A stretch of 64,000 bases of DNA, from contig JALGZR010000025.1 in NCBI GenBank assembly GCA_025774805.1, positions 15,213-79,212 of the forward strand. The letters run 5' to 3'. The notes under the pieces were generated by a model. That model did no database searches. It worked only from the letters and a program-made list of their open reading frames with translations, and was not told where the DNA came from. The stretch's first letter is position 1, and every line of letters begins with the position of its first letter. The position numbers and the translations under genes are program-made. This DNA comes from a bacterium (GTDB lineage: Bacteria; ARS69). This document shows, in pieces, positions 15,588 to 50,591 of the stretch.

Positions 15588-18088
15588 TTGCACTTCAGCG
15601 TCGCGAGGGCGCCGTGCGAGTCGACATCCTCGAGAGCCTCCTGGGGCATGGCCTGAACCTCCAGCCGGACGAAGGCGCGCCGGCGGGCGAAGAGCTCGTC
15701 CCAGTCGACGGCGTGGCCGTCGAAGAACGGTCCGTCCACACATGCAAACTGGGTCTCACCGTCGACGGAGACCCGGCACGCGCCGCACATGCCCGTGCCG
15801 TCGATCATGATCGGGTTCAGCGCGACCTGCAGCGGGACTCCGAGCTCCTTTGTCTTCTCCGAGACCATGCGCATCATGAACGTGCAGCCGATGGCCACGA
15901 ACAGATCCGGTTTCGGTCCCGCGCGGTCGAGCTCGACGAAGATCTCCTGCACACCTCCTTTGGTCCCGGCGCTGCCGTCCTTGGTGGCGAGCCGCAGATC
16001 GTCGCACACGGCGCGGAGCTCGTCCTCCATGTGGAGAAGGTAGCTGCTGCACGCCTCGATCACGGCGATCACCCGGTTGCCCGCCTCCTTCATCGCCCGG
16101 GCGAGGGGATAGATCGCGCCGACGCCGTAACACCCGCCCCCGAGCACGACCGTGCCGTACTTCTCGATCGGAAGCGGCAGTCCCAAGGGACCCGTGACGT
16201 GGGCCACGGAGTCGCCCTCGTCCAGGTCGGCGAGCTCGCGGGTCGTTCGGCCGAGCTCCTCGATCAGCAGGGTGATCGTCTCCTCCTCGGCGCTCCAGTC
16301 GACCAAGGTGAACGGCGTGCGCTCGGAGGATTCGTTCGGCATGAGGATGATGAACTGTCCCGGCTTGGCGTGTCTCGCGATGGCGGGCGCCTTGATCTTG
16401 AAGCGGTGGAAGTTGGGCACGACCTCGGACTTCTCGACGATGGCGAAGCCGTCCTTGGGCCGGACGCGCGGCGGCTTCGGGGTCGCCGGGAGTCCCATCG
16501 CCTCCAACGCGGGAACGGTGTCGGCGAGAGGGTGGCCCCGGAAGCGCGCCGGCAGCTCGCGCAGCGAGTCGCGCGGGCTTCCTCGGAACGGTCTTGCCGG
16601 GCCGTCCCCGTTCAATCCGGCGGTGATCTCGCCCACGGAACCGTCCGCGAAGCTCTCGTCGGCTCCCATGGCGAGAGCCAGATCCCCGATGATCGACCAC
16701 TCGGAACGCGCCAGGCCGGGCGGTCCGCTGACCGGGACCGTTCGCCTCACCTCTCCGTCGCTCGCGCGGAACGTGCCCTCGACCTCGGAGAGCACCGACA
16801 CGGGAAAGACCGCGTCGGCGATCTCGCCCGCCGCGGGCGACAGGAAGTCGGCGAGCACCAGGTACTCGATCTTCTCGGCGGTCTCCCGGTCGAGATAGTC
16901 CCCGGTCACGAGCGCCGCGCGGACCCGACCTTCGGCGAAGTCGCGGCGCAGCCGCGGGGGGCGCAGGTCGTCGAAGCCGCCTCCGGCGGGCACCCAGGCG
17001 ATACGCCCCTTCATCACCTCCTTGACGAAGCGCTCGTAGACGGCACGCGTCTCTCGCGACTCCGCCTCGTTGGCCACGAGCACGAACCGCCGGCGCACGT
17101 AGCGGCACAGGCGCTCGGCGACGGCCGGAATCGCCTCGTCCCAGTCGGCGGGGACGAGCTCGTCCTCGCTGCGCACCATCGGCCGTTGCAGTCGGTGGGT
17201 CGCGTTGACGAGTTGCGGATAGGCGAAGCGACCGAGAGCGCAGAGGCGCGCGTCCCGCTCGTTGCTCACCATGCGGGTGGAGACCAGGCGCCCGTCGTTG
17301 ACTCTGGTCCGGAACGTGCAGCCCTCGGGGCAGAGGGTGCAGGCGGAGATCGGACCGTCCACGGAGTGCCCGTACCAGCGCGCGTATCGGTCGGTGAGCG
17401 TGCCGGTGGGGCAGATGTCGACGCAGGCCCCGCAGAACGTGCACCCCGAGTTCACGTAGCTCCGGCCGAACGCGGGACCGATCTTGGCCCAGCGGCCGCG
17501 GCGCACCGCGCTGATCGCCGGGGCGCCGTGGATCTTCTCGCAGATGCGCCAGCACAGGCCGCAGAGGATGCAGAGGTTGTGATCCCGATCCATGAACGGA
17601 TCGTCCCGCTCCAAGTTGTGGTGCGAGTAGAGGGTGGGCAGGTTGAGGCGGTCGGTGGCCGCGCGAAGCGCGATCTCCCGCACCCCGCACCCGTCGCGGT
17701 TGCTGCAGAAGCCGCAGCGCGTGGTCGCGCCGGCCTTGGAGGAGCGGGGCCGGTACTTCTCGCAGTCGACTCGGTGGTCGCAGACCAGGCAGGCGTTCGG
17801 GTGACCGCTCATCATCAGCTCCATCACCCGGTCGCGCTGCTTTTGCAGCTCCGGAGTCTTCGTCTGCACGCGCATGTTCTCGCGGGCCGGCGTCGTGCAC
17901 GACGTGGGGTAGCCGCGCACGCCGTCGATTTCCACGATGCACATGCGGCACGCGCCGTAGTCGGGCAGATCGGGGTGGGCGCAGACGGTGGGGATGTCGA
18001 TGCCCGCTCCGCGAGCCGCTTCGAGCACCGTGCTGCCTTCCGCCGCGGTGACCTTGAGTCCGTCGATGGTCAGCGTGATCGTCTTCAC
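15584..18088 (-). CDS. NuoG-like Fe-S protein fused to NfnA/SudB-like FNR-type flavoprotein
   Basis: 834 residues from the GTG at 18088, chosen for its ribosome site (GAGGAAG). N-terminal half: a plant-type [2Fe-2S] domain (CAHPDLPDYGACRMC), the NuoG His/Cys region (CDHRVDCEKY), two [4Fe-4S] motifs (CILCGLCWRICEK, CTFCGACVDICP) and the cluster of a molybdopterin-type domain (CTLCPEGC). The molybdopterin part is short and lacks obvious cofactor loops. The C-terminal 280 residues are an FNR/dihydroorotate-dehydrogenase electron-transfer module (FHRFKIKAP, TPFTLVDW, GGGCYGVGAIYP) ending in a [2Fe-2S] motif (CGACRVSVDG), as in NfnA. It should link a NuoEF diaphorase to the GltA-like subunit. It overlaps gltA by ATGA. 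Confidence 0.85.
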   Translation of the reverse strand: MKTITLTIDGLKVTAAEGSTVLEAARGAGIDIPTVCAHPDLPDYGACRMCIVEIDGVRGYPTSCTTPARENMRVQTKTPELQKQRDRVMELMMSGHPNACLVCDHRVDCEKYRPRSSKAGATTRCGFCSNRDGCGVREIALRAATDRLNLPTLYSHHNLERDDPFMDRDHNLCILCGLCWRICEKIHGAPAISAVRRGRWAKIGPAFGRSYVNSGCTFCGACVDICPTGTLTDRYARWYGHSVDGPISACTLCPEGCTFRTRVNDGRLVSTRMVSNERDARLCALGRFAYPQLVNATHRLQRPMVRSEDELVPADWDEAIPAVAERLCRYVRRRFVLVANEAESRETRAVYERFVKEVMKGRIAWVPAGGGFDDLRPPRLRRDFAEGRVRAALVTGDYLDRETAEKIEYLVLADFLSPAAGEIADAVFPVSVLSEVEGTFRASDGEVRRTVPVSGPPGLARSEWSIIGDLALAMGADESFADGSVGEITAGLNGDGPARPFRGSPRDSLRELPARFRGHPLADTVPALEAMGLPATPKPPRVRPKDGFAIVEKSEVVPNFHRFKIKAPAIARHAKPGQFIILMPNESSERTPFTLVDWSAEEETITLLIEELGRTTRELADLDEGDSVAHVTGPLGLPLPIEKYGTVVLGGGCYGVGAIYPLARAMKEAGNRVIAVIEACSSYLLHMEDELRAVCDDLRLATKDGSAGTKGGVQEIFVELDRAGPKPDLFVAIGCTFMMRMVSEKTKELGVPLQVALNPIMIDGTGMCGACRVSVDGETQFACVDGPFFDGHAVDWDELFARRRAFVRLEVQAMPQEALEDVDSHGALATLKCK

Positions 18089-18099
18089 GGCCGCTTCCT

Positions 18100-20523
18100 C
18101 TACTCCACCAGCACGGCATCGAACTTGCACGCGTCACGGCACGATCCGCAGCGAATGCAGTTGTCGACGTCGATCCGGTGGGGTTGTTTCTTCTCTCCGG
18201 CGATGGCGTCGACGGGACATGCGCGCACGCACATGGCGCAGCCCTCGCAGGCCTCCCCGTCGATGCAGAACGTGACCAGCTCGCGGCAGACGCCGGCCGG
18301 GCACTCATGGTCCTCGATGTGCGCCCGGTACTCCTCGGCGAAGTAGCGCAGGGTGGTGACCACCGGGTTCGGAGCGGTCTGGCCCAGGCCGCAGAGTGAG
18401 CCCTTGAACATCGCGTCGGCAATGCCCTGAAGCCGGTCCAGATCCTCCTGCCGCCCGCGGCCTTCGCAGATCTCGGTCAGCGTGCTCAGCAGGTGCTGGG
18501 TTCCGATCCGGCAGGGCACGCACTTGCCGCACGACTCGCTCTCCGTGAACTCCAGGAAGTAGCGCGCCACGTCGACCATGCACGAGCGCTCGTCCATGAC
18601 GACCATGCCGCCCGAGCCCATGATCGAGCCGAGCTCCTGCAGGTGCTCGAAGTCCACCGGGACGTCCAGGTGCGGGCCGGGGATGCAGCCCCCCGAAGGG
18701 CCGCCGGTCTGCACGGCCTTGAACTCGCGGCCGTCGGGGCAGCCGCCGCCGATCTCCTCGACGATCGTGCGCAGCGGCGTGCCCATCGGCACCTCGATCA
18801 GGCCCGAGTTGTTGATCTTGCCCACCAGGCTGAACACCTTGGTGCCCTTGCTCTTCTCCGTGCCGATGCCGGCGTACCAATCGGCGCCGCCGAGGATGAT
18901 CCGCGGGACGCTGGCCCAGGTCTCGACGTTGTTGATGTTGGTCGGCTTTCCGAACAGCCCCTGCTCGGCGGGGAACGGAGGCCGGGGCATCGGCATCCCG
19001 CGGCGCCCCTCGATGCTGGACATCAACGCCGTCTCCTCGCCGCAGACGAAGGCGCCGGCACCCTGCTTGATCTTGACGCGGAAGCCGAATCCGGAGCCCA
19101 GGATGTCGTCGCCGAGCAATCCCAGCTCCTCGGCCTGCTGGATCGCGGTACGCAGCGTGCGGACGGCCAGCGGATACTCGGAGCGGATGTAGACATAGCC
19201 TTCGATCGGGCTGACCCCGCCGGCGATGGCGTAGGCGCCGATGATCATTCCCTCCAGCACCGAATGCGGATCGCCCTCGACGATCGAGCGATCCATGTAG
19301 GCGCCGGGGTCGCCCTCGTCGCTGTTGCAGATGAGGTAGCGCATCGTGCGGTCGGCCGCTTCACGACAGAAGCGCCACTTGCGACCCGTCGTGAAGCCCG
19401 CCCCGCCGCGGCCCCTCAGCCCCGAGCGCTCGATCGTGTCCACGATGTCCTCGGGATCCCGGCCCAGCACCTTCCCCAGCGCGGCGTAGCCGTCCACATC
19501 GAGGTAGTCCTCGATCCGCGTCGGGTCGATCTTGCCGTTGTTGCGCAGCACGATGCGGTTCTGCCGGGAGTAGAACGGGATGTCCTCGTACTTGACGATC
19601 TTCTCCTTGGTCCGCGGATCCTTGTACAGCAACCGAGCCACGGGCTCACCCGCCAGCACCGACTGCTCGACGATCTCCTTCGCGTCCCGTTGCGGGTACC
19701 TGCGTCCGACCTCGCGGTAGAAGATCCCGTGGGGCTCGACCGCGACCACCGGCGCCTTCTGGCAGAAGCCGTGGCAACCGCTGATCGTCAGATCGACCTC
19801 GTCGGTCAGATCGCGCTCCCTCAGCTCCTCTCCCAGCGCGTGGGCGGCCTCCATGCTGCCCGCGGCACGGCAACCGGTTCCGCCGCAGACGATGATCCGG
19901 GGACGGTCGGGATGCCGCGCGGCCATCACCTTCGTTCGCAGGTCGTCGAGCTCCGCGACCGAGGAGAGGTGGCGGTCGCCGTTGCGGGCCACCCGGACGA
20001 CCTCGTCGGCGCCGAGATCCTCCAGTCCGGTGGGGGCGGCGACCCCGCCGACCTCGAGCTGGTCCTTCTCCTGGATGAGCCCCTCCGCCTTCCGCGGAGT
20101 CATGCGGTCGTAGACCTTGTCGTTGATCACGATGACCGGGGCGAGGGCGCAGGAGCCGAAGCAGGCCACCCGCTCCAGGCTGAACTCCCGGTCGGAGGTC
20201 GTCTGCCCCGGCGCGATGTTCAGATCGCGCGAGAGCTGATCCAGGATCAGGCCGGCGCCGCGCACGTGACAGGCGGTGCCCTGGCACACCTTGATGCTGT
20301 GCTTGGCCGGCTCGTCGAACCGGAACTGGGCGTAGAACGTGGCGACGCCGTAGACGTCGTTCTCGGACACCCTCAGGTAGTCGGCGATCTCGCCCACCGC
20401 TTGCTCGGACAGGTAGTGAAAGCGGGTCTGGGCTTCCTGCAGTATGGGAATCAGGTTCTGCCGCGCCCGGTCGTACCCGGAGAGCAGACGCTTGAGCTCG
20501 ACAGCAGGGTGGGGAACGGCCAT
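18100..20523 (-). CDS. fused NuoE-NuoF-type NADH-oxidising subunit
   Basis: 807 residues. Residues 1-155 are a thioredoxin-like NuoE domain with four Cys for [2Fe-2S] (CQGTACHVRG, CFGSCALAP). A second thioredoxin-like ferredoxin follows (GTGCRAAGS, ISGCHGFC). NuoF comes next, with the NADH/FMN Gly-rich loops (GRGGAGFTTGRKW, CNSDEGDPGAYMDR), the N3-type cluster motif (SCGKCVPCRIG) and a C-terminal two-[4Fe-4S] ferredoxin (CEGCAMCVRACP, CIRCGSCRDACK). It is the layout of HndC/HydB-like subunits of soluble NAD-linked complexes, with NuoE fused on. First gene of the three-gene operon; the partner gene starts 11 bp after its stop. Confidence 0.9.
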   Translation of the reverse strand: MAVPHPAVELKRLLSGYDRARQNLIPILQEAQTRFHYLSEQAVGEIADYLRVSENDVYGVATFYAQFRFDEPAKHSIKVCQGTACHVRGAGLILDQLSRDLNIAPGQTTSDREFSLERVACFGSCALAPVIVINDKVYDRMTPRKAEGLIQEKDQLEVGGVAAPTGLEDLGADEVVRVARNGDRHLSSVAELDDLRTKVMAARHPDRPRIIVCGGTGCRAAGSMEAAHALGEELRERDLTDEVDLTISGCHGFCQKAPVVAVEPHGIFYREVGRRYPQRDAKEIVEQSVLAGEPVARLLYKDPRTKEKIVKYEDIPFYSRQNRIVLRNNGKIDPTRIEDYLDVDGYAALGKVLGRDPEDIVDTIERSGLRGRGGAGFTTGRKWRFCREAADRTMRYLICNSDEGDPGAYMDRSIVEGDPHSVLEGMIIGAYAIAGGVSPIEGYVYIRSEYPLAVRTLRTAIQQAEELGLLGDDILGSGFGFRVKIKQGAGAFVCGEETALMSSIEGRRGMPMPRPPFPAEQGLFGKPTNINNVETWASVPRIILGGADWYAGIGTEKSKGTKVFSLVGKINNSGLIEVPMGTPLRTIVEEIGGGCPDGREFKAVQTGGPSGGCIPGPHLDVPVDFEHLQELGSIMGSGGMVVMDERSCMVDVARYFLEFTESESCGKCVPCRIGTQHLLSTLTEICEGRGRQEDLDRLQGIADAMFKGSLCGLGQTAPNPVVTTLRYFAEEYRAHIEDHECPAGVCRELVTFCIDGEACEGCAMCVRACPVDAIAGEKKQPHRIDVDNCIRCGSCRDACKFDAVLVE

Positions 20524-27240: not shown

Positions 27241-27271
27241 GCCGGCGGGAGCGGTCGGCGCTCCCGCCGGC
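27241..27271. terminator. bidirectional hairpin terminator
   Basis: Perfect 13-bp stem (GCCGGCGGGAGCG with CGCTCCCGCCGGC) and a 5-base loop GTCGG, between two convergent stop codons. No T-tract, as is usual in GC-rich genomes. The last base of the stem is part of the TAG stop of the minus-strand gene. Confidence 0.75.
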
Positions 27272-30200
27272 TAGCGGCAGCCGACGAATCGGACCGCGTT
27301 CAGGGACTCCCGCACGACGCTCGCCATCGCGTCCAGCGTGTAGTCGATGTCGTCGTCGGTGGTCGAGCTCCCCAGAGAGAAGCGCACGGCGCAGTGTGCC
27401 TGCTCCTCGCTGAGCCCCATCGCCAGGAGGGCGTGGGAGGGATCGGGGTTGCCCGCCTTGCACGCGGAGCCGGACGACAGGCAGACCCCGTGGCGATCGA
27501 GGAAGAGCACCATCGACTCGCCGCGGATGGCGGGCAGACTCACGTTGAGCGTGTTCGGCAGCCGTCGCTCGACCGGGCCGTTCCGCCGCGCGTCCGGAAG
27601 CAGTTCGAGGATGCCCGCCTCGAGACGGTCGCGCAGCGCGGCCAGCCGCGGGCCCTCCCCCGCCAGGAGCCGTTGCTCGGCCAGCTCGCAGGCGGCTCCG
27701 AAGCCCACGATGCCCGCGACGTTCTCCGTGCCGGCGCGCAGGCCGCCCTCCTGATCGCCGCCGTGCACCAACGGCGTGAGCTCGACCCCCTTTCGAACGT
27801 AGAGCGCGCCGACGCCTTTGGGGCCGCCCAGCTTGTGGGCGGAAACGGTGAGCAGGTCCACGTCGAGCGCGCCGACGTCGAGCGGGACCTTGCCGAGCGC
27901 CTGAACGGCGTCGCAGTGGAACCGCGCGCCGTGGTCCCGGACGAGGGCGGCGAGCTCTTCGATCGGCTGCAGCGCCCCGACCTCGTTGTTGGCGGCCATG
28001 ATGCTGACGAGGCGCGTGTCTACGCGCAGCACCGCCCGGAGATTCGCCGGCGAGACCAGGCCCTCGCCGTTCACCGGGAGCACCGTCAGGTCGAATCCTC
28101 TCCTCTCGAGCGCCCGGCACGTGGCGAGCACCGCGGGGTGCTCGACGGCCGAGCAGACGATGTGACCGCCGGGATCGGAGAGGCTGCCCTTGAGGGCCAG
28201 GTTGTTGGCCTCGGACCCGCTGCCCGTGAAGACCACACGTCGGGCGGTGCAGCCGAGCAGGTGCGCGACCTGCCGCCGGGCGGCCTCGACCGCGGCGCGC
28301 GCCCGACTCCCCGGCTCGTGAATGCTCGAAGGGTTGGCGCAGGCCCCCTCGAGCCAGGGACGCATGGCCTCGAAGACCGCCGGGTCGAGGGGCGCGGTCG
28401 CGTTGTTGTCGAGGTAGACCGCGCGCGAGACGACGGGGCCCGCGATCGCGTCCTCTGCCGCGGCGTCCCGAACGTCCGGCCGGTCCACGGCGTGTCCTTC
28501 GGCCCTCCGGACCTCGCACAACAGCGCCTTGTAGACCGGGAAGCCCGAGACCGGATCGAAACGGGCGGGATCGGTGAGAGTGTTCACGTTGCACTGCCGC
28601 CAGGTCTCGGGGCCGTTGGGACCCCCGCCGCCCATCTGCGGATCCACGCAACCGCGAACGATGTCATCGGTGAGTCGGGCGTGGTAGCGGACGCGCCCGC
28701 GCGCGGTCTCGACCCACACGGGATCGCCGTCCCCGATCCCCCGGGCCTCCGCATCGGCGACGTGCATGAGCACGGTGGGGCTCGGCTGGGACTCGCGCAG
28801 ACCCTCGACGTTGTGGTGCTGGGAACGGAAGTCGTACGCGGTGCGGGTGCCCGACGTGAGCACCAGGGGGTACCGATTGGCGAGACCCGGTCGCGCCAGA
28901 GGTCCCTCGCCCGGCTCCGTGTAGACGGGAAGCGCATCGTAGCCGTGCTCCGCGAGGGTGCTCGACGCGATCTCGAGCCGTCCGGAGGGCGTGTCGAAGC
29001 CGGGACGCCCGTCGGGCCGAAGCCGGCCCTTCTCCCATTTGCGGTACTCCATGGCGACCGCCGGGATCTGCACGGAACCGCCCGCCGCCCGAACCTGCTC
29101 CAGCGTGAACCCGCTGCCCTCGAGAGCGAAGCGCAGAATCTCCTCCTCGCTCTGCGGAAAGAGCTCACCGTATCCCAGCCTCCGGGCCAGCTCGCCCAGG
29201 ATGAGGAAATCGCCGCGCGCCTCGCCCTGAGGCTCGATCATGCGCTCGCGGATCTTGAACATCCCCCCGTAGCGCATGTAGGAGACGTTCTCGTAGTAGG
29301 TGGTCGCGGGGAGCACGATGTCGGCGTAGGCGGAGTCGGCGGTGTGGTAGCGATCGATACAGACGAGGAACTCCAGCGCTCCCAGCGTTCGTCGCCAGAG
29401 ACCGGGATCGGGCCACGCGGTGATGAGCGAGCCGCCGAGCACGAGGAGCGCGGTGATGGGGTAGGGGCGTCCCTCGAGCACCGCCTCGGGCAGCGCGATG
29501 GCGTGCGACTCGCCGCGGTACGCGCTGTACACGGGGAAGCGGTCGCGGCCCAGAGCCCGTGCCGGGTTCGGGTTCGCGATCAAGCCGGAGCGATTCTGCG
29601 GGAAGGCGTTTTCGCGCATCCGGATCACGAGCCCGCCCGGAACGTCGAGCTGACCGGCCAGGGCCCAGAGCACCAAGACCGCGCGGATGGCCTGGACACC
29701 GCTGTCCGAATACTCGAGGCCGCTGTACATGACGGGGCAGGCGCCCCGCGCGGTGGCGATGCGCCGCGCCCACTCCCGGATCCGCTCGGCCGGGACGCCC
29801 GTGATGCCCTCGGCCACCTCGGGTCGGTAGTGCTGCGTCAGTTGCGCGAGCTCGTCGAAGCCCACCGTCCACTCGCGGACGAAGGCCTCGTCGTAGAGCT
29901 CCTCCTCGATGAGGACGTCGATCATGGAGAGCGCCAGGGCGCCGTCGGTGCCCGGCCGAACTCCGAGCCATTCGGCCCCGGCCTGACGGGCCGTGCCGTT
30001 GCGGCGCGGGTCGATGGAGACGACCTCGGCGCCGCGGGCGCGAGCCTCGAGGATCTTGCGGTGCAGGAGCGGAGGAGAGTCGGTGGCGGGATTCGCGCCC
30101 CAGAGAACCACGAGCTCGGACTGCTCGATGTCCACGTCCATCGTGATGTAGAGCTCTCCGAGTGTGGTGTGCGGGGCGATCATGGCGAACGAGACGTAAC

Positions 30201-30651
30201 AGAGCGCCCCGACCCCCAGCGTGTTGGGTGACCCGAACGGGAAGAGGACGCTGGAAGCCGAGGAGACCGCGGTGTCCGCCGGCTGGAACAGGTCGCAGAG
30301 CGCCATGTCGAATGCGCCTCGTCCCGTGTAGATGGCCGTGGCCTCGGCCCCTCGCTCGGCCTTCGTGCGCTCGAGCTCGGCGACGATGATCTCGAACGCG
30401 TCGTCCCAGGAGATTGCCTCGAAATCGTGGGTTCCCTTGGATCCCCTGCGCCGCAGGGGCGTCTTCAGCCGATCGGGGTCGTGGACCACCCGGGGCGAGT
30501 GGCGACCGATCGTGCAGATCATGCCGAGGGGGTGGTCGGGCAGAGGCTCCACGCGGGCCATGCGGCCGTTCTCCGAGCCCACGCGGACCCAGCAGCCCGC
30601 CGGGCAGATCCCGCAGAGGCCTTCGCGCCACGACAGCTGGCCAACGGTCAC
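27271..30651 (-). CDS. metallopterin-dependent ergothioneine synthase (molybdopterin oxidoreductase-cysteine desulfurase fusion)
   Basis: 1126 residues from the GTG at 30651, which overlaps the egtD stop (GTGA); upstream in-frame codons lie inside egtD. The N-terminal 730 residues are a molybdopterin-bis-PGD (DMSO reductase/acetylene hydratase-like) domain with [4Fe-4S] ligands Cys13, Cys16, Cys20 and Cys46 (CGICPAGC, MICTIG). From about residue 742 a NifS-like desulfurase starts (VYLDNNATAPLDP), with the PLP Lys in SAHKLGGPKG and the catalytic Cys near 1060 in SSGSACKAGN. This two-module layout is that of the enzyme described from Caldithrix abyssi, which moves sulfur from cysteine to hercynine without oxygen. 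Coupling to egtD supports the same role here. Confidence 0.88.
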   Translation of the reverse strand: MTVGQLSWREGLCGICPAGCWVRVGSENGRMARVEPLPDHPLGMICTIGRHSPRVVHDPDRLKTPLRRRGSKGTHDFEAISWDDAFEIIVAELERTKAERGAEATAIYTGRGAFDMALCDLFQPADTAVSSASSVLFPFGSPNTLGVGALCYVSFAMIAPHTTLGELYITMDVDIEQSELVVLWGANPATDSPPLLHRKILEARARGAEVVSIDPRRNGTARQAGAEWLGVRPGTDGALALSMIDVLIEEELYDEAFVREWTVGFDELAQLTQHYRPEVAEGITGVPAERIREWARRIATARGACPVMYSGLEYSDSGVQAIRAVLVLWALAGQLDVPGGLVIRMRENAFPQNRSGLIANPNPARALGRDRFPVYSAYRGESHAIALPEAVLEGRPYPITALLVLGGSLITAWPDPGLWRRTLGALEFLVCIDRYHTADSAYADIVLPATTYYENVSYMRYGGMFKIRERMIEPQGEARGDFLILGELARRLGYGELFPQSEEEILRFALEGSGFTLEQVRAAGGSVQIPAVAMEYRKWEKGRLRPDGRPGFDTPSGRLEIASSTLAEHGYDALPVYTEPGEGPLARPGLANRYPLVLTSGTRTAYDFRSQHHNVEGLRESQPSPTVLMHVADAEARGIGDGDPVWVETARGRVRYHARLTDDIVRGCVDPQMGGGGPNGPETWRQCNVNTLTDPARFDPVSGFPVYKALLCEVRRAEGHAVDRPDVRDAAAEDAIAGPVVSRAVYLDNNATAPLDPAVFEAMRPWLEGACANPSSIHEPGSRARAAVEAARRQVAHLLGCTARRVVFTGSGSEANNLALKGSLSDPGGHIVCSAVEHPAVLATCRALERRGFDLTVLPVNGEGLVSPANLRAVLRVDTRLVSIMAANNEVGALQPIEELAALVRDHGARFHCDAVQALGKVPLDVGALDVDLLTVSAHKLGGPKGVGALYVRKGVELTPLVHGGDQEGGLRAGTENVAGIVGFGAACELAEQRLLAGEGPRLAALRDRLEAGILELLPDARRNGPVERRLPNTLNVSLPAIRGESMVLFLDRHGVCLSSGSACKAGNPDPSHALLAMGLSEEQAHCAVRFSLGSSTTDDDIDYTLDAMASVVRESLNAVRFVGCR

Positions 30652-31649
30652 CGGGCAATCTTCCAGAGAGCATCGCAGAACCAGCGTCGCTTGTCGTAGA
30701 AACGGCCCTCCTCGACGAAGTTCGCGTGGGCACAGAGGTCGTCGATATCGCTGTCGAAGTACTTGTAGCTGTACTCGGTGTGAAGGGCCTCCCACGCCTC
30801 GAAGTGGAATTCGTCGCGAAGCTGATCGATGCGCACCCTCTGGTCCCGAACACTCACCAGGTAGCTCTTCATGGCGCTGGTGTGGACGTCGTAGGCGGCG
30901 AAGTGGCGGAAGGAAGAGACGTCGAAGTGGCCGCCCAACTCCCGGTTGATCCGTTCGAGGAGATTCAAGTTGAAGCGCGCGGTCACGCCCTTCGGGTCGT
31001 TGTAGGCGCGCATCAGGATCTCGATGTCCTTCTTGAGATCGAAGCCCACGAGAACCCGGTCGCCGGGAGACAGGGCATTGTGAAGGCGCCGCAGAAACGC
31101 CCGCACTCTCGGGCGCGTGAAGTTGCCGATGTTCGAGCCGAGAAAGAGGACCAGCTTGTGTCGCCGGCTCTGCTCGCCGAGCCGACGAAGGCTGTCGAAG
31201 TACTCCCCGACGAGACCCGCGATGGTCAGGGTCTCGTAGCGGCGACCCATCGCTCTGACCAAGCGTTCCATGCTCTTCTCGGAGATGTCGATGGGCACAT
31301 AGCGGACGTCGTTGCCGGCGGCCACCAGAGGTTCGAGCAGGATCGCGGTCTTGTTTCCGTCGCCGGAGCCGAGATCCACCACGTCGACCGGGCCGCTGCG
31401 CACCGAGGCCAGCATGCGTTCACCGTGGCTCTCGAAGATCTGGCGCTCCGAGGCCGTCAGGTAGTACACATCCTGCTCGGTGATTTGCTCGAAGAGGCGG
31501 CTGCCGGTGTCGTCGTAAAACCACTGAGAGGCGATGTGCTTGGGTCGCTCCGACAGGCCGATCAGCACATCGTCGGCGAACGCCTGCAGTGACGCCGCCT
31601 CATCGGACCGTCCGTCGACCGAGAGAGCTCGGTAGCCTTGGTGGGACAC
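30648..31649 (-). CDS. egtD: L-histidine N-alpha-methyltransferase EgtD
   Basis: 333 residues, GTG start. The EgtD pattern is clear: QWFYDDTGSRLFEQIT near residue 43, YYLTASERQI, the SAM loop VDLGSGDGNKT, LFLGSNIGNF, and the histidine-binding Asn/Tyr region AYNDPKGVTARFN. It trimethylates histidine to hercynine with SAM. It is the first gene of a two-gene operon and overlaps the synthase by four bases. An extended -10 box ends only eight bases before the GTG, which suggests a leaderless transcript. No EgtB, EgtC, EgtE or EanB-like gene is seen nearby. Confidence 0.92.
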   Translation of the reverse strand: MSHQGYRALSVDGRSDEAASLQAFADDVLIGLSERPKHIASQWFYDDTGSRLFEQITEQDVYYLTASERQIFESHGERMLASVRSGPVDVVDLGSGDGNKTAILLEPLVAAGNDVRYVPIDISEKSMERLVRAMGRRYETLTIAGLVGEYFDSLRRLGEQSRRHKLVLFLGSNIGNFTRPRVRAFLRRLHNALSPGDRVLVGFDLKKDIEILMRAYNDPKGVTARFNLNLLERINRELGGHFDVSSFRHFAAYDVHTSAMKSYLVSVRDQRVRIDQLRDEFHFEAWEALHTEYSYKYFDSDIDDLCAHANFVEEGRFYDKRRWFCDALWKIAR

Positions 31650-42356: not shown

Positions 42357-42380
42357 GAGGCTCGTGAAAAACGCAGGTCA
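42357..42380. repeat. partial repeat G (right end) at a stop codon
   Basis: GAGGCTCGTGAAAAACGCAG followed by GTCA resembles the right terminus of the repeat with a few changes. Read on the minus strand it starts with the TGA stop of the hdrCB fusion. Confidence 0.55.
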
Positions 42381-43874
42381 GGCCGACTTTTCGAACCGCC
42401 GCAGGCACTCCGGCTTGAAACGATGCCGCTCCAGCCCGAGCTCGTCGTAGGGAACTCCCTGGGCGAAGGCGAGGAGCTGCATGTAGTAGATCGAGGGGAT
42501 GTGGAAGTCCTCCTCGAACCGCTGCGCGATCTTCATCTGCCCGTGATCGAACTGGCCGAAGCAGGTGGGGCAGATGAGGCAGAGAAGCTCGGCGTCCTCC
42601 TCCCGGACGGAGGTGAGCAGGTCGCGCATCATGTTCGCAGGGAGGTCCTCTTCCTGGCAGGCCTTTCCGCAGCAGAGGTGCCAGTTGTGATGGCGCACGG
42701 GCTCGGCGCCGAGGGCACCGACGAGGTCCTCCATCATTCTCGGGTCGTTGGGATCGTCGACGCGCATCACCGCGCTCGGCTTGAGAAGATGGCAGCCGTA
42801 GTGGATGGCGATCTGGAGACCCTCCAGAGGGCGCACCACCGAATCCCGAATCCGTCCGATTCCGATGCAGTCGCGGAGAACCGTGGCCACGTGGCGAACC
42901 CGGGTGGTCCCGTGGTACCGGCGTCCGATGCGGCGAAGCCGCCGGTCCACCTTCTCCAGGAGCTCGGAGTCATGCAGCAGGTGCCAGGCCTCGGAAAGGG
43001 TCGCGGTGCAACCCGAGCAGTTCGTTACGACGTCGAGCCCCAGCTCCTCGGCGAGTGAGAGGTTGCGGGCCGCCACGGTCAGCCAGCTCAGCTTGTCCTT
43101 CGACTTGAAGTAGATCGGATCGGGGCAGCACGAGGCCCCCTCCATGTCCACGAGCTTCACGCCGAGGGTCTCGAGGGTGCGGCGGATCGCCTTCTCCATC
43201 GCGGGATAGCGCGCCGGAATCAGGCAGCCGGGGAAGAATGCGAAGCGGTCGGTTCTCGTCACCGGGTGCGGAGAGATCTCCTTCTCCACCACCGGGTCCG
43301 GCCCGTCCTCCGGCGGCTCCTCCAGGAGCGTACGGATCTCGTCGACCGGGACGGCCGGCATCGGGGAGAGCCCGAACTTCTCGCGCTGCCGGTCGACCGC
43401 GGTGGAGGCCGGCACCGTCCGGCCCGTGGTCTCGAAGGTCTTGATGACCCGCTCCACCCCGGCGGAGATCAACCCCCGATCGGCCAGCATGTTCTTGAGG
43501 GAGAGGATCACCTCGACCGGTTTGACTTCCTGCGGACAGCGCTCGTGGCAGTTGTAGCAGTTCGTGCAGAGCCAGAGGACGGACTCCTCGCCCAAGAGCT
43601 CCGGCTCCAGCCCGTACAGGACCTGCAACATGATCTCGCGCGGGTTGAACTTGTCGCTGTAAATGGCCGCGGGGCAATCGCCGACGCAGGCGCCGCACTG
43701 GTAGCAGAAGTTGGCGAGGTTTCCCTCCACCTTCTTCGCCAGCTCCCGCCGGAACTCGAAGTCGACGTGGACGACATCGCCCTCGGGTCTCGCCCCGTCC
43801 TCCGACTTCGGCGTGTCCTCGGTCTTCGGTGCGGGCTCGGGTTTCGATGCGGGCTCAGGCTTCGGTGCGGGCAT
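42378..43874 (-). CDS. HdrC-HdrB fusion (CoB-CoM heterodisulfide reductase-like)
   Basis: 498 residues. An acidic/Pro linker (about 1-30) precedes an HdrC-like ferredoxin with two [4Fe-4S] motifs (CYQCGACVGDCP, CTNCYNCHERCP). Residues 220-480 hold two CCG (Cys-Cys-Gly) domains of HdrB: FFPGCLIP ... ASCCPDP ... NCSGC, and HYGCHLLKP ... LCCGKACQ ... CPTCFGQFD, which bind the noncubane [4Fe-4S] clusters where disulfides are reduced in methanogens. The bacterium need not use CoM/CoB; the real disulfide or other acceptor is unknown. Last gene of the kor-hdr operon; its start overlaps the zinc-ribbon gene by 20 bp. Confidence 0.9.
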   Translation of the reverse strand: MPAPKPEPASKPEPAPKTEDTPKSEDGARPEGDVVHVDFEFRRELAKKVEGNLANFCYQCGACVGDCPAAIYSDKFNPREIMLQVLYGLEPELLGEESVLWLCTNCYNCHERCPQEVKPVEVILSLKNMLADRGLISAGVERVIKTFETTGRTVPASTAVDRQREKFGLSPMPAVPVDEIRTLLEEPPEDGPDPVVEKEISPHPVTRTDRFAFFPGCLIPARYPAMEKAIRRTLETLGVKLVDMEGASCCPDPIYFKSKDKLSWLTVAARNLSLAEELGLDVVTNCSGCTATLSEAWHLLHDSELLEKVDRRLRRIGRRYHGTTRVRHVATVLRDCIGIGRIRDSVVRPLEGLQIAIHYGCHLLKPSAVMRVDDPNDPRMMEDLVGALGAEPVRHHNWHLCCGKACQEEDLPANMMRDLLTSVREEDAELLCLICPTCFGQFDHGQMKIAQRFEEDFHIPSIYYMQLLAFAQGVPYDELGLERHRFKPECLRRFEKSA

Positions 43875-44049: not shown

Positions 44050-47000
44050 TCAGGACGGGGTCGCCGTCTTCGTCTTCGCCTTTGCCCTCGTCTTCCGAAC
44101 TTTGGGTTTCAGCGCCTCCATCGAGTGCTCGATCTCCTCGGGCGCGACGGTCTTCCGGAGCTCTTCCATTCGCCGCATGACCTCCGCGAACTTCTGGCCC
44201 TCGGCCGCGCTGATCCACTCGAGCTGGAGTCGCTCGGGCCGAACACCGGCCCTCTCCAGCTTGCCCCAGAGCTTCTGGACCCGCTTCACCGTCTGGCGGT
44301 TCGCGTTGATGTAGTGGCAGTCCGAATAGTGGCACCCGGACACCAGCACGACCGGCGCGCCGCACCGGAAGGCCTCCAAGACCATCTCCTCGGAGACGCG
44401 CCCGGAGCACATCGTCCGGATCAGGTGGGCGGTCGCCGGGTACTGGAGACGCGAGATGCCGGCCATGTCGGCGCCGGCGTACGAGCACCAGTTGCACGCG
44501 AACACCACGACCTTTTCCGCGGGCCGGGACTCCAGCATCGCCCGGACCTGAGCCAGCAGCTGATCGTCGCTGAAGTGCAGCATGGTGATCGCGCCGAACT
44601 GACACGCGGCCCCGCAGGTGCCGCAGCCGGCGCAGAGGGCCTCCACGATCTCGGGCGTGGTCTTCTTCTCCCATTGGATCGCGCTGTAGGGGCAGACGCC
44701 CGCGCAGATGCCGCACATCTGACACGGATCGGGGTCGAGGCGGGCGATCGCCGGATGTTGTTTCGCCTTTTCGTGGGACAGGAATACCGCGGCCTTGGCC
44801 GCCGCCGCCGACGCCTGCGCGACGGAGTCCACGATGTCCTTCGGTCCCTGGGCCGTTCCGGCGACGAACACGCCTTCGACGGTCGTCTCCACCGGAGCGA
44901 GCTCGGGGTGGCGCTCCATGAAGAAGCCGTCCAGACCCACGCTCGCCTTGAGCATGACGTGGAGTCGATCCGTATCGGGTTGGAGCGGCCTCATTCCCAC
45001 GCTCAGGACGACGAGATCGGTTTGGACCTCGATGCGGCGCCGGAGCAGGTCGTCGAAGCAGCGCACCGCGCCGACCCGATCCTCGCCGATGATCTCGGGC
45101 TTCTCGCCGTCCGGGATCCGCACGAAGAGCACGCCCATGCCGCGGGCCCGGCGGTACATCTCCTCGGCGCCGGAGGAGATCGTCCGGATGCCCCGGTGGA
45201 AGACGGTGACGTCCACCCCCTGCTCCCGCAGCTGGATGGCCTGCTTGATCGCGGTCGGGCAGCAGTAGCGCGAACAGCCCCGATGGCTTTCGAGATCGCG
45301 CGACCCGACGCAGAGAATGAAGGACGCGCTCTGCGGGCCCTGGCCGTCGGCGTGCGGCAGCTTCTTGTCGAAGAGTGCTTTCTCGAGCTCCGCGCTCGTG
45401 ACGACGTTGGGAAGCTCCCCGTAGCCGTACTCACCGGTGGGGTCGTGGAGGTCGGCTCCCAGGGCGAGCACGATCGCTCCCACGCGCAGCGAGTCGGCCT
45501 TTCCGTTCGTCAGGGTGACGTCGAAGTTGCCGACGTATCCGCTGACGTCATCGACCTCGGTTCCCAACAGGATCTTCGCTCCGCTCGCCTTCAGGCGCTC
45601 GATCTTCTCCGCCAGAACCTCGGCTGCGGGGCGCATCGTGGGGTACAGGAGCATCAGGCTCTCTCCCGCCAGCCGCCCGCCGAGCCGGTCCGTCTTCTCG
45701 ACGAGCGTCACGGGGAAGCCCTGCTCCGCCAGGTCGGTCGCGGCCTGGATGCCGGCGATGCCGCCGCCGATGACGAGGGCCTCACGGGTCATGGGAACCT
45801 CACGCTCCTCGAGCGGATCGAGACGCGCGGCCCGGGCCACGCCCATGCGCAGCAGGGACTTCGCCTTCTCCTGGGCCTCGGCCGCCTCCTTGACGTGGAC
45901 CCACGAGCACTGGTCGCGGATGTTCACCATCTCGAGGAGATAGGGATTCATCCCGATTCGACTCAGCGTCTCGCGGAAGACCGGTTCGTGGGTGCGGGGG
46001 GTGCACGCCGCGACGACCAGACGGTTGAGTCGGTGCTCCCGGACGATCTCCGCGATCTGATCCTGCCCGGTGGACGAGCAGGAGAAGAGATCCGTGTCGG
46101 CGACCACGACGTCGGGAAGTGACTCCGCGTAGGTCGCGAGCTCCTTGACGTCCAGGAGGCCGGCGATGTTCACCCCGCAGTGGCAGACCACCACGCCCAC
46201 CCGGGGCGGGCCCGACACGTCGATCGGCTCGACGGGCTCCGTCTCCTCGGGAGCGCGGTGTCCCGTCAGGTACAGGGCCGCCCGGGACGCTGCAGCGGAA
46301 GCCTGGGCGACGGCATCGGGAATCACCTGCGGACCCACGGCGCTGCCGCACACGTACACGCCTTCGCGGGAGGTCTCCACGGCCGACAGGGCCGGATCAC
46401 TCGGCTGAATGAACCCGTAGGTGTCGGTCTCGATGCCCAGGATCTCCGCGAGGGCGACGGCCTGGTCGCTGGGTGCGGCGGCCACCGAGAGCACCACGAG
46501 ATCGGCCGGGATCCGCCTCAGCTCGTGACCGAGCGTGTCCTCCACAAAGACCTCGAGCGTATCGGTCTCGATGTCGCACTCGACCTTCGCGGGACGGCCG
46601 CGGACGTACTGGGCGCTCTTCTCGTCGCGGGAGCGCTGGACGAACTGGTCGAACCCCTTCCCGAACGCGCGGAGATCCGTGTAGAGGATCGTCACGTCCT
46701 CCACGTCGGGATCGTGCTCACGCAGGAGGAGGGAGTCCTTCACCGCGTTCATGCAGCAGAATCGGCTGCAGTAGGGCCGGCCGCCCTCTCCCCGGGCGCC
46801 CACGCACTGGACGAACACGACGCGTCGTGGCGTGCGCTGATCCGAGGGGCGCACGACGTGACCGCCCGTCGAGCCGGCCGGACTCAACATACGCTCCAGC
46901 TCCAGACTGGTCACCACGTTGGGGAAGCGGCCGTAGCCGTAGTTGCCCAGCTTGCGGGCGTCGAACTCCTGGAAGCCGACGGCGACGAGAACGGACCCGA

Positions 47001-47595
47001 CGGTCCGTTCCGTCTCCTCACCGGGATCGTCGAAGTCGATCGCGTCGATGTCGCAGACCGCCATGCATCGGTCGCAGACCAGGATCTTGTCGTTGAGACA
47101 CAGGTCCCGATCGATGGCGTAGGTGGCGGGAACCGACTGAGGGAAGGGGCGGTAGATCGCTTTCCGGGCTTTGAGCCCGAGATCGAACTCGTTTCCCGAC
47201 ACCTGGGGACATGCGTCGACGCAGAGACCACACCCGGTACAGAGGTCTTCCCGCACGTAGCGCGGGTGCCGGCGTACGCGAACCCGAAAACGTCCGGGCT
47301 CTCCTTCGCAGCCCACGACCTCGGCGTTGCTCAGGACCTCGATCAACGGATGCCGACCGGCATCCAGGGCCTTGGGCCCCAGGATTCAGATCGAACAGTC
47401 CATGGTGGGGAACGTCTTGTCGAGCTGGGCCATGCGCCCGCCCAACGACGGAGACTTCTCCACCAGAGTCACCGGGATACGGGCGTTCGCCAGATCCAGA
47501 GCCGCCTGGATGCCCGCGATTCCGCCCCCGATGACGAGGGCCCTGGTCTCGCTCGCCGGATGGGTCGAGCTCTCCCCTCCTTTTCCGGCGACCAT
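44050..47595 (-). CDS. hdrA: HdrA-HdrA-MvhD fusion, probable selenoprotein (in-frame TGA at codon 70)
   Basis: 1182 codons from the ATG at 47595 (GGAGG five bases upstream; a TTG five codons earlier is the alternative). The first HdrA domain has FAD site VIGGGIAGI, then [34 protein letters not shown]. HdrA proteins have Cys or Sec at this exact place. A [4Fe-4S] pair follows ([12 protein letters not shown] and further Cys). The second HdrA domain ([20 protein letters not shown]) starts near residue 600 and lacks the Cys/Sec loop. Two ferredoxin motifs ([24 protein letters not shown]) lead into MvhD ([24 protein letters not shown]). HdrA bifurcates electrons through FAD in methanogens. If TGA is read as stop, only a 69-residue peptide is made. 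Confidence 0.88.
47348..47388 (-). promoter_or_regulatory. candidate bacterial SECIS element
   Basis: On the minus strand the TGA (47388-47386) is followed after 20 bases by a perfect 7-bp stem, GGATGCC and GGCATCC, with a GGTC loop (27 bases from TGA to loop). Bacterial SECIS hairpins have a small apical loop with G in the first two positions, 16-37 bases after UGA, and E. coli fdhF has GGUC-like loop bases. The hairpin is inside the coding frame, as required in bacteria. Confidence 0.75.
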
Positions 47596-47596
47596 G

Positions 47597-48220
47597 TCAC
47601 CCTCCTCCAAGGGTGCGGCCGGCCGCGGACCGGGCGGGTTCCCGCCCGTCCGACAACCATGGCCGCGTCCACGGTTCTCGGTCTCGTTGCTCCTGCTGAT
47701 AGTGATCCCAGCCGGCGTCGAAGGCCTTCCGATTCAACTCCACCGTTCCGGCCGGAACGGAGGCTTCCACCGCCGCGCGCATCTGTCCACGCGTGACGAA
47801 TCCCGTGACCGCCGCGAAGAACCCCAGCATCACGATGTTCTGTACGATGGTGCGCCCGAGGTTCTCGGCGATGCGCGTGGACGGGACCCCGAACTTCGTG
47901 CGCGTCTCTCCCGCCGGATCTACGAGGTCCTGCTCGTAGACCAGGATTCCGTCCGAGCGGAGCTCGTGCCGGTACTTGTCGTACCCCTCCGCCGACATGG
48001 CCACGAGCACGTGGGGACGACGCGCGTACGGGTACAGGATCTCGTCCTCGCTCAGGACCAGCGTGGCGCTGCACGAGGACCCCCGGGCCTCGGGACCGAA
48101 GCTCTGGATCATCGTGGCCTGGTGCCCGGCCTCGATCGCGTAGGCGCGCCCGACGACGTAGCCGCACATGACGACGCCCTGTCCGCCGAAGCCGGTGATC
48201 CGAATCTCAGTCCGGGGCAC
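47597..48220 (-). CDS. korC: 2-oxoacid:ferredoxin oxidoreductase gamma subunit (KorC-like)
   Basis: 207 residues with a GTG start that overlaps the korB end by 14 bp. The gamma domain signature is [17 protein letters not shown] at the start, then [13 protein letters not shown] and the [18 protein letters not shown] segment. Residues 170-207 are a polar tail not usually conserved. In Kor enzymes the gamma part helps close the CoA site of the alpha-beta core. One base separates its stop from the hdrA ATG. Confidence 0.88.
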
Positions 48221-49109
48221 GGATCCATCCTCCCTCTTCGGACATGGGAACGTACTTGTCTCCGAGAACGCGTCCGTAGTGATCGTGCATCATGTCGAGG
48301 AACGTGGGCCGCTCCTCGTCCACGAACTTGCCGCAGACGATCGGACCCTGGAAGTCGATGTCCATGTTCCGTGTGTCGGCGCCGTGTCGGATCTCCGAGT
48401 TCTCGTAGTAGTACTGCAGCAGGTCGTACCCCGAGCCCAGCTTGTTGAGCCGCGCGTAGAGGGTGGAGCAGGGGGCGATGACCTCGACGAAGCGGAAACC
48501 CTTGCGTTGGATGGCCTCCTGGAACGACTTCGTGAGTCGTCGCACGTGGAGACAGGTCCAGCGCGCCACGTACGTGGCCCCCGAGCTCGCGGCGAGATAA
48601 GGCAGGCTGAACGGCCGCTCGAAGTTTCCGAACGGCATCGTGGACGAGCGGGCGTTCACCGGCGTCGTCGGCGCGTTCTGTCCGCCCGTCATTCCGTAGA
48701 TGAAGTTGTTCACCAGGACGATCAGGAGATCCATGTTGCGGCGCGCGGCGTGAATGAAGTGGTTGCCGCCGATACCGACCAGATCGCCGTCGCCCGAGAA
48801 CACGGTCACCAGGAGCTCCGGCCGCCCGAGCTTGAGCCCGGTGGCGAAGGGGACGGCACGGCCGTGGGTGGAGTGAAAGCCGTCGAGCTTCATGTAACCG
48901 GCCACGCGACCGGTGCAGCCGATGCCCGAGCAGACCGCCACCTTGTCCAGATCGGTTCCGGTCCGCTCGAGCGCGGCGGCGAAGCACTTCACGACCGTGC
49001 CGATGCCGCACGTCGGACACCAGATGTGCGGCATCCGGTCCATCCGCACGTAGGGGGAGATGGGGTGCGCTTCCGGGCGCGTCTCGGCCGTCTGTCTCGC
49101 TTCGCTCAT
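48207..49109 (-). CDS. korB: 2-oxoacid:ferredoxin oxidoreductase beta subunit (KorB-like)
   Basis: 300 residues from MSEARQTA at 49109; ATGA overlap with korA. The TPP-binding subunit motifs are present: WCPTCGIGTVVKCF (first cluster Cys pair), CSGIGCTGR, TVFSGDGDLVGIGGNHFIHAARRN split around the GDGD TPP motif, and NNFIYGMTGGQNAPTTP. KorB binds thiamine diphosphate and a [4Fe-4S] cluster. Sequence style fits 2-oxoglutarate (Kor) rather than pyruvate enzymes, but the substrate is inferred from the subunit layout. Confidence 0.9.
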   Translation of the reverse strand: MSEARQTAETRPEAHPISPYVRMDRMPHIWCPTCGIGTVVKCFAAALERTGTDLDKVAVCSGIGCTGRVAGYMKLDGFHSTHGRAVPFATGLKLGRPELLVTVFSGDGDLVGIGGNHFIHAARRNMDLLIVLVNNFIYGMTGGQNAPTTPVNARSSTMPFGNFERPFSLPYLAASSGATYVARWTCLHVRRLTKSFQEAIQRKGFRFVEVIAPCSTLYARLNKLGSGYDLLQYYYENSEIRHGADTRNMDIDFQGPIVCGKFVDEERPTFLDMMHDHYGRVLGDKYVPMSEEGGWIRAPD

Positions 49110-50263
49110 GCCGCCGCCCTCACGATTGCCCGGCGGATCGCCTCCGGGTCGTGGACGCCGCCGCCCGCGTGCGAAACGAGAACGACCGGAGCGCGACCGG
49201 CCGCGCAGCGCTCCACCTCGAGCGACATCTGGCCCAGGTTGATCTCCGGAACGACGAACGCCTTCAGGTTCCCGGCCAGCTCCCGCACCCGCTTCTCCGG
49301 GAACGGCCACACGACGATGAGCCGCAGTACACCCACCTTCACCCCGTCCTCCCGGGCCAATCGGATTCCCATGCGGGCGACGCGCGCGGTGATGCCGTAC
49401 GTCACCACCACGACATCCGCCCCCTCGGTGTCCTCCTCTTCGAAGCGGATGATCTTGTTCGCGTTCCCGCGGATCTTCTGGACGATTCGCGTGACGTTGT
49501 CCTGCTGGCACTCCTCGCTCATCACGGGGTATCCGCGCTCATCGTGCGTGAGTCCGGTCGTGTGGAACCGGTACCCGTCTCCGGCGCGGGCGAACTCGGG
49601 AATCTCCATTCCGTTCGTCCCGTACGGCACGAACTCCTCGGGCGGGACGCGCGTGAGCTTCCGGGGAATGATGTCGATCTCGTCCGCGTCGGGAATCACC
49701 ACCTTCTCCGTCATGTGGCCCACGCACTCGTCCATCATCAAGAGGACCGGAGTGCGGTACAGCTCGGACAGATTGAACGCGTCGATCGTCTGGTCGAAGG
49801 CCTCCTGCGGGGAGCGCGGGCAGAGGGCGATGACCTCATAGTCCCCGTGCGATCCCCATCGCGCCTGCATCATGTCCGCCTGTCCGACCATCGTCGGCAG
49901 TCCGGTGGAGGGACCGCCGCGCTGCACGTTGACCACGACGCAGGGCGTCTCCATCATCGCGCCGAGCCCGAGGTTCTCCATCATCAGGCTGAAGCCGGGT
50001 CCGCTCGTGACCGTCATGCTCTTCGTACCGGTCCACGAGGCGCCCACGACGGCCGCCATGCTGGCAAGCTCGTCCTCCATCTGGATGAACGTGCCGCCCA
50101 TCGTCGGAAAGCGGCGACTGATGCGCTCGACGACCTCCGTGGAGGGGGTGATGGGATAGCCGGCCACGAAGCGGCAACCGGCGGCCATGGCCCCTTCGGC
50201 GCACGCGAAATCGCCGTCCAGGTAGTGAGCTCCCGTCAATACTCCGGATGGATCCGCCTTCAT
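49106..50263 (-). CDS. korA: 2-oxoacid:ferredoxin oxidoreductase alpha subunit (KorA-like)
   Basis: 385 residues. The alpha subunit pattern: DGDFACAEGAMAAGCRFVAGYPITPSTE is the pyrimidine-binding domain start (given here in part), followed by QMEDELASMAAVVGASW with the TPP-activating Glu, TSGPGFSLMMENLG, and the C-terminal domain (GADVVVVTYG, VLRLIVVWPFP). It has no fused gamma domain, as the gamma is a separate gene. Together korDABC encode an enzyme that interconverts a 2-oxoacid with acyl-CoA, CO2 and reduced ferredoxin. Stop 16 bp after korD. Confidence 0.9.
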   Translation of the reverse strand: MKADPSGVLTGAHYLDGDFACAEGAMAAGCRFVAGYPITPSTEVVERISRRFPTMGGTFIQMEDELASMAAVVGASWTGTKSMTVTSGPGFSLMMENLGLGAMMETPCVVVNVQRGGPSTGLPTMVGQADMMQARWGSHGDYEVIALCPRSPQEAFDQTIDAFNLSELYRTPVLLMMDECVGHMTEKVVIPDADEIDIIPRKLTRVPPEEFVPYGTNGMEIPEFARAGDGYRFHTTGLTHDERGYPVMSEECQQDNVTRIVQKIRGNANKIIRFEEEDTEGADVVVVTYGITARVARMGIRLAREDGVKVGVLRLIVVWPFPEKRVRELAGNLKAFVVPEINLGQMSLEVERCAAGRAPVVLVSHAGGGVHDPEAIRRAIVRAAA

Positions 50264-50282: not shown

Positions 50283-50591
50283 TCACGCGGCGCCGGCGGC
50301 CCGCGGCGGGGACGAACCGTCCGTCGACTCCGACTCCTCCACCGGCACGCAGAAGATGGCGAAGTCCGGACAGATCATCTCGCAGAGGCCACAGTTGACG
50401 CAGTCCGCCTCCTTGAGCGCTTCCGGAGGGTGATAGCCCTTCCGGTTGAACTTCTCCGACATCACGAGCACGTCCTTCGGACAGTACTCGACGCAAAACG
50501 CGCACCCCTTGCATCGTTCGACGAGAATGAGCACGCGTCCTCGCGGGACGACCACCTGATCGAGGTCGAGGGGATTGCGCCAGGGTTTCAC
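50283..50591 (-). CDS. korD: KorD-type ferredoxin subunit, two [4Fe-4S]
   Basis: 102 residues with a GTG start and GAGAGGAAG upstream. Two ferredoxin motifs, [14 protein letters not shown] and [16 protein letters not shown], are separated by about 25 residues, as in delta subunits of 2-oxoacid:ferredoxin oxidoreductases. First gene of the seven-gene kor-hdr operon. It is the natural electron exit of Kor and thus the likely contact with HdrA or MvhD. Promoter candidate lies 265 bp upstream. Confidence 0.9.

Follow-up and report, generated by a model that had tools for sequence, protein, structure and literature searches.

A kor-linked gene cluster in a bacterium of the ARS69 lineage predicts a selenocysteine-containing HdrA-HdrA-MvhD protein

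Background

HdrA proteins that contain selenocysteine (Sec), with a bacterial SECIS element, are known from methanogens, Deltaproteobacteria and Clostridia (PMC1794560, PMC13188914, PMC2702500; NCBIfam NF040770), and hdrA-hdrA arrangements in Deltaproteobacteria were already noted by Zhang and Gladyshev. In HdrA, Cys197 of one protomer coordinates the N-terminal [4Fe-4S] cluster of the other and lies on the electron path to ferredoxin (PMC9012536). The fused HdrA of ANME archaea is composed of complementary halves (PMC9012536).

The locus described here was found in a 64,000 bp stretch, referred to as the window, of contig JALGZR010000025.1 (positions 15,213 to 79,212, GenBank assembly GCA_025774805.1). 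Its HdrA belongs to the same family as the known Sec-HdrA proteins, and shares with them the CxxU site, as judged by motif, and a bacterial SECIS downstream. It differs from them in being part of a kor operon, in its occurrence in Planctomycetota, Acidobacteriota, Zixiibacteriota, Latescibacterota and others, and in having MvhD fused behind two HdrA halves. In ANME archaea and Moorella, HdrA that is fused or in tandem (HdrA3/4; PMC9012536) likewise has two halves that are complementary for the N-terminal Fe-S domain and Cys197, but here the order is reversed, with residue 197 in the first half and the N-terminal domain in the second, and residue 197 is predicted to be Sec. The HdrABC-MvhADG complex (PDB 5ODC and others) is built from the same HdrA, HdrB/C-like and MvhD modules, which are homologous over nearly the whole length, whereas the modules here adjoin a KorDABC 2-oxoacid oxidoreductase and carry a predicted Sec in place of Cys197. 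No description of a kor-linked Sec-HdrA operon or of an HdrA(U)-HdrA-MvhD chain was found in the open-access literature. The locus would add a conserved kor-hdr operon, present in at least eight phyla and mostly in metagenome-assembled genomes (MAGs), to the known range of Sec-dependent electron bifurcation. Ordinary gene callers split the kor-linked Sec-hdrA genes at the TGA.

Organisation of the kor-hdr gene cluster

The genes are transcribed from the minus strand in the order korD, korA, korB, korC, hdrA(U)-hdrA-mvhD and an hdrCB-like gene. The assigned genes and the domains of the fusion are as follows.

50283..50591, minus strand: korD, ferredoxin-like delta subunit (Fer4 families)
49106..50263, minus strand: korA, alpha subunit (NF006412, 566 bits over a cut-off of 411; PF01855, PF17147)
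48207..49109, minus strand: korB, beta subunit (best match 2-oxoglutarate:ferredoxin oxidoreductase beta, 230 bits, below cut-off)
47597..48220, minus strand: korC, gamma subunit of 2-oxoacid:ferredoxin oxidoreductase (PF01558)
44050..47595, minus strand: hdrA(U)-hdrA-mvhD fusion gene, 1181 aa on read-through, with predicted Sec at residue 70 (NF040770; FlpD/MvhD domain at residues 1029-1145)
46263..47553, minus strand: first HdrA half, ~residues 15-445 (aligns with 5odc_A 145-511)
44524..46208, minus strand: second HdrA half, ~residues 463-1024 (aligns with 5odc_A 3-175 and 483-650)
44116..44511, minus strand: fused MvhD domain, ~residues 1029-1160, with CNWC, hence Cys and not Sec (PF02662)
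42378..43874, minus strand: hdrCB-like subunit with a 4Fe-4S and two CCG cysteine-rich domains (PF02754)

A preliminary description of the window had recognised a bacterial HdrA-HdrA-MvhD fusion within a kor operon, and the domain matches bear out both assignments. The HdrA2 model NF040770 gives the fusion product 1265 bits, above the curated cut-off of 1100. The first HdrA half comprises a thioredoxin-reductase/FAD domain with an inserted ferredoxin domain and the position equivalent to residue 197 (U197), and lacks the N-terminal Fe-S domain, there being no CHCG motif before residue 471 of the protein. That motif, at 471, marks the N-terminal Fe-S domain of the second half, which also has the C-terminal ferredoxin domain and a Glu (GAG) in the Cys197 column. 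The hdrCB-like gene matches HdrB (TIGR03288, 293 bits) and HdrC (TIGR03290, 105 bits), both under the cut-offs. KorA scores over the cut-off for the 2-oxoacid alpha model and under it for the 2-oxoglutarate model, and KorB is below cut-off.

An in-frame TGA at codon 70

Read-through translation of the minus strand from 47595 to 44050 gives one HdrA-HdrA-MvhD frame with a single internal TGA.

47386..47388, minus strand: in-frame TGA read as Sec (residue 70, equivalent to Cys197 of the 5ODC HdrA chain in the 5odc_A alignment, offset 127)

With this TGA counted as a residue, the frame runs from the ATG at 47595 to the TGA ending at 44050 and encodes 1181 residues, with U70 in the motif DCSI-U-ILGPK. 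A ribosome site, GGAGGAGGG, precedes the start, which lies 2 nt from the korC stop. Both korC and the fusion gene itself are terminated by TGA, which indicates that this codon is not globally recoded in the genome, and a reassignment of TGA to Trp or some other residue was dismissed because neighbouring genes end in TGA.

About 78 distinct relatives of the gene, spread over at least eight named phyla, share a TGA in the codon 70 column; they were collected from one contig scan (50 loci) and from genome relatives. In the Cys-bearing HdrA homologues the same column is TGC or TGT (12 distinct Cys-type sequence windows compared, one of them, L024, doubtfully aligned). It had been proposed from the DNA of the window alone that a single HdrA frame continues on both sides of the TGA and that the codon falls at the residue that is Cys or Sec in this family; the intact 1181-residue frame and the alignment at codon 70 agree with both proposals.

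A conserved hairpin downstream of the TGA

The preliminary description had also pointed to a perfect 7-bp stem with a GGTC loop 20 bases past the TGA. This element was recovered, and compensatory C-G to U-A changes were found in relatives.

47348..47365, minus strand: SECIS-type hairpin GGATGCC-GGTC-GGCATCC, 20 nt after the TGA (supported by fold, conservation and covariation)

A 20 nt spacer (47385-47366) is followed by the 5′ arm GGATGCC (47365-47359), the loop GGTC (47358-47355) and the 3′ arm GGCATCC (47354-47348), the two arms forming a perfect stem of 7 bp. The local fold has a free energy of -36.7 kcal/mol, compared with -28.0 on average for shuffled sequences (z -2.3), which is only moderate taken alone, so that it is conservation among relatives that decides whether the hairpin is above chance. 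As no match was found within the window in Rfam at gathering thresholds, the SECIS was judged by covariation.

Of the seven stem pairs, five form in every one of 79 distinct TGA sequence windows; the innermost is present in 78 of them and the outermost in 56. One pair is C-G in 58, U-A in 15, U-G in 6 and C-A in none, and the U-A form, which involves an Ala to Val replacement together with a change at a silent Arg position, recurs in the two paralogues and across several clades. Among 31 representatives, paired cells amount to 96.8%, compared with 28-56% when the partner arm is slid. Stem covariation in the same set is 0.170 against 0.084 for shuffled alignments and is reached by 0/500 shuffles, a comparison in which kinship among the sequences can itself beat shuffles, so that the slid control and the recurrence of the changes weigh more. 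Within the stem, Asp is encoded by GAT and His by CAT in 79/79 copies, opposite to the preference of the fusion gene itself (GAC 46 vs GAT 23; CAC 20 vs CAT 4). The stem is not kept in the 12 distinct Cys-type windows, and two Cys homologues treated with the same folding did no better than shuffles.

Genes for selenocysteine decoding

A search of the genome for the Sec machinery, as suggested in the preliminary description, was successful for three of the four components. A tRNA-Sec with a TCA anticodon (72 bits), SelA (536 bits, cut-off 268) and SelB (383 bits, cut-off 242) are present, and selD was not found in the assembly (96.3% complete, 284 contigs), where the sole match, at 20 bits, reads as purM and was rejected. 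All four other genomes of the family and phylum have strong selD matches, each with one in-frame TGA, and the absence here is therefore most simply an assembly gap.

The conserved TGA codon, the covarying hairpin and the tRNA-Sec, selA and selB genes together make it near certain that U70 of the HdrA fusion is selenocysteine. Decoding of the TGA at 47388-47386 as Sec by SelB and tRNA-Sec, directed by the hairpin 20 nt downstream, is strongly supported by these sequence features. The Sec HdrA proposed initially, which the Cys homologues also favour, is thus retained, as is its statement that such proteins are known in methanogens and delta-type bacteria, for which there is literature (PMC1794560, PMC13188914, PMC2702500). 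The encoded protein is predicted to be a true selenoprotein from an established family, with an unusual, fused domain arrangement.

Contig C261 carries another selenoprotein candidate, an mvhD gene (L126 2628, minus strand) with CNW-U and a 7-bp hairpin 19 nt after the TGA. The cluster on C261 has Cys in HdrA and Sec in MvhD, the reverse of the window. Formate dehydrogenase alpha-like matches in the genome have no in-frame TGA. One large ORF in the window (27271-30795) resembles a molybdopterin oxidoreductase, matches formate dehydrogenase alpha below cut-off and also has no in-frame TGA.

Predicted function of the fusion protein

U70 aligns with residue 197 of 5odc_A. By homology it would replace Cys197 as a ligand to the N-terminal [4Fe-4S] cluster of the partner half, and we infer that U70 is a cross-domain Fe-S ligand. 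The complementary layout, with U197 in the first half and the N-terminal domain in the second, is seen in the window and in most relatives. As one half has U197 and the other the N-terminal domain, the fusion chain may supply both sides of its own pseudo-dimer via one selenolate ligand placed between FAD and ferredoxin. A concrete and testable role for Sec at the Cys197 position is thereby proposed.

The product would be a Sec-containing HdrA-HdrA-MvhD subunit for electron bifurcation or confurcation. Acting with HdrCB and KorDABC, it would most likely link 2-oxoacid oxidation, via ferredoxin and the FAD of HdrA, to electron exchange with a disulfide at HdrCB and with a partner at MvhD. The 2-oxoacid is probably 2-oxoglutarate, which is a guess, as are the partners at HdrCB and MvhD. 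Two DsrC-family genes (L130 and L131) were detected in the genome, and a DsrC-type disulfide at HdrCB is consequently possible.

Origin of the fused gene

The operon of the relatives has the order korDABC, hdrA(U)-hdrA, mvhD1, a distant hdrCB, hdrA2(U)-mvhD2 and hdrCB2. All Sec-bearing relatives with enough flanking sequence on both sides have two separate Sec-hdrA genes, and none is fused as in the window. The second Sec-hdrA (L049-L094), which is fused to mvhD and has the same hairpin, lies ~5 kb downstream of the first TGA in most relatives and is missing from the window.

44731..44790, minus strand: predicted crossover zone, ~residues 936-955 (from a sliding comparison of identity with the two genes in 24 relatives)

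The fusion gene resembles gene 1 up to ~residue 945 and the C-terminus of gene 2 thereafter. The fused MvhD shares 78-86% identity with mvhD2 in a large number of relatives and 44-54% with mvhD1, the hdrCB gene of the window matches hdrCB2, and ~4 kb is missing at the crossover zone compared with the relatives. A ~4 kb deletion, either in the organism or in the assembly, would account for the switch from gene 1 to gene 2 and for the matches to mvhD2 and hdrCB2. The three-part fusion is not the normal form, and from these comparisons the gene appears to be a crossover of two Sec-hdrA genes. Two neighbouring genes appear to have merged in this genome by internal deletion, and the fusion, if real, offers a natural single-chain HdrA dimer for structural work.

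Alternative explanations

Two other readings of the TGA were considered. The source is a MAG in which selD was not found, and the codon might be a sequencing error or nonsense mutation in a broken hdrA pseudogene; however, the recurrence of the TGA in 78 distinct copies across many phyla, the covarying hairpin, the intact frame on both sides and the presence of tRNA-Sec, selA and selB render this exceedingly improbable. Equally hard to credit is a real stop that yields two proteins, a 69-aa stub and an HdrA reinitiated at the TTG at 47346, ~40 nt past the TGA. Such a stop would cut the FAD-binding domain within the invariant DCSI-C/U motif, the Cys homologues read through codon 70, and the conserved stem would be left unexplained. 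With Sec at codon 70, the residue could act as a catalytic redox residue of the thiol/selenol type rather than as an Fe-S ligand, since C-S-I-U resembles a CxxU redox motif and a 2026 review lists HdrA as CxxU. This is considered unlikely, because Cys197, with which the residue aligns, binds the partner's N-terminal cluster according to PMC9012536, and because the halves are complementary for U197 and the N-terminal domain.

More weight attaches to the proposal that the Sec gene is real and the fusion is an artefact of a mis-joined MAG, which lost ~4 kb between the similar 3′ parts of two Sec-hdrA genes. The occurrence of two separate genes in the relatives allows this, the fusion is absent from every relative with enough sequence, the crossover falls within a stretch homologous between both genes, and contamination of the assembly is 5.06%. 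However, the frame continues unbroken over the junction, protein similarity between the two genes at the crossover is only moderate, with no obvious shared exact k-mer, and the missing pieces were not seen elsewhere in the assembly. Misassembly is accordingly regarded as possible though doubtful. The preferred explanation, which joins Sec decoding, a Sec HdrA-HdrA-MvhD bifurcation or confurcation subunit, the ligand role of U70, Kor-Hdr electron exchange, horizontal acquisition and gene merger, is considered highly probable. A further-reaching reading, of a single-chain HdrA pseudo-dimer with one Sec as its sole bridging ligand, in a selenium-tuned Kor-Hdr bifurcation complex that spread horizontally among uncultured phyla and was condensed here by deletion, is offered tentatively, its likelihood being a little short of even.

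Lineage and acquisition of the operon

The ispH gene of the window is 69-72% identical to those of four family members and ≤40% identical to those of other genomes; it places the contig in the family lineage, and contamination of the contig was rejected. The korA gene is 77% and 68% identical to genes of two genomes outside the family and ≤45% identical to any match within it. Neither Sec-hdrA nor the kor-hdr operon was found in any of the four other family members. A quick tree places the first HdrA half together with two Acidobacteria MAGs (support 94), inside a set mixing many phyla. As the operon is common to several phyla and absent from the four family relatives, it was probably acquired horizontally.

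Elsewhere in the window, adjacent genes at 14274-20523 encode NuoE/NuoF-like, NuoG-like plus NAD-binding, and glutamate-synthase-like subunits, which may form a second bifurcating complex.
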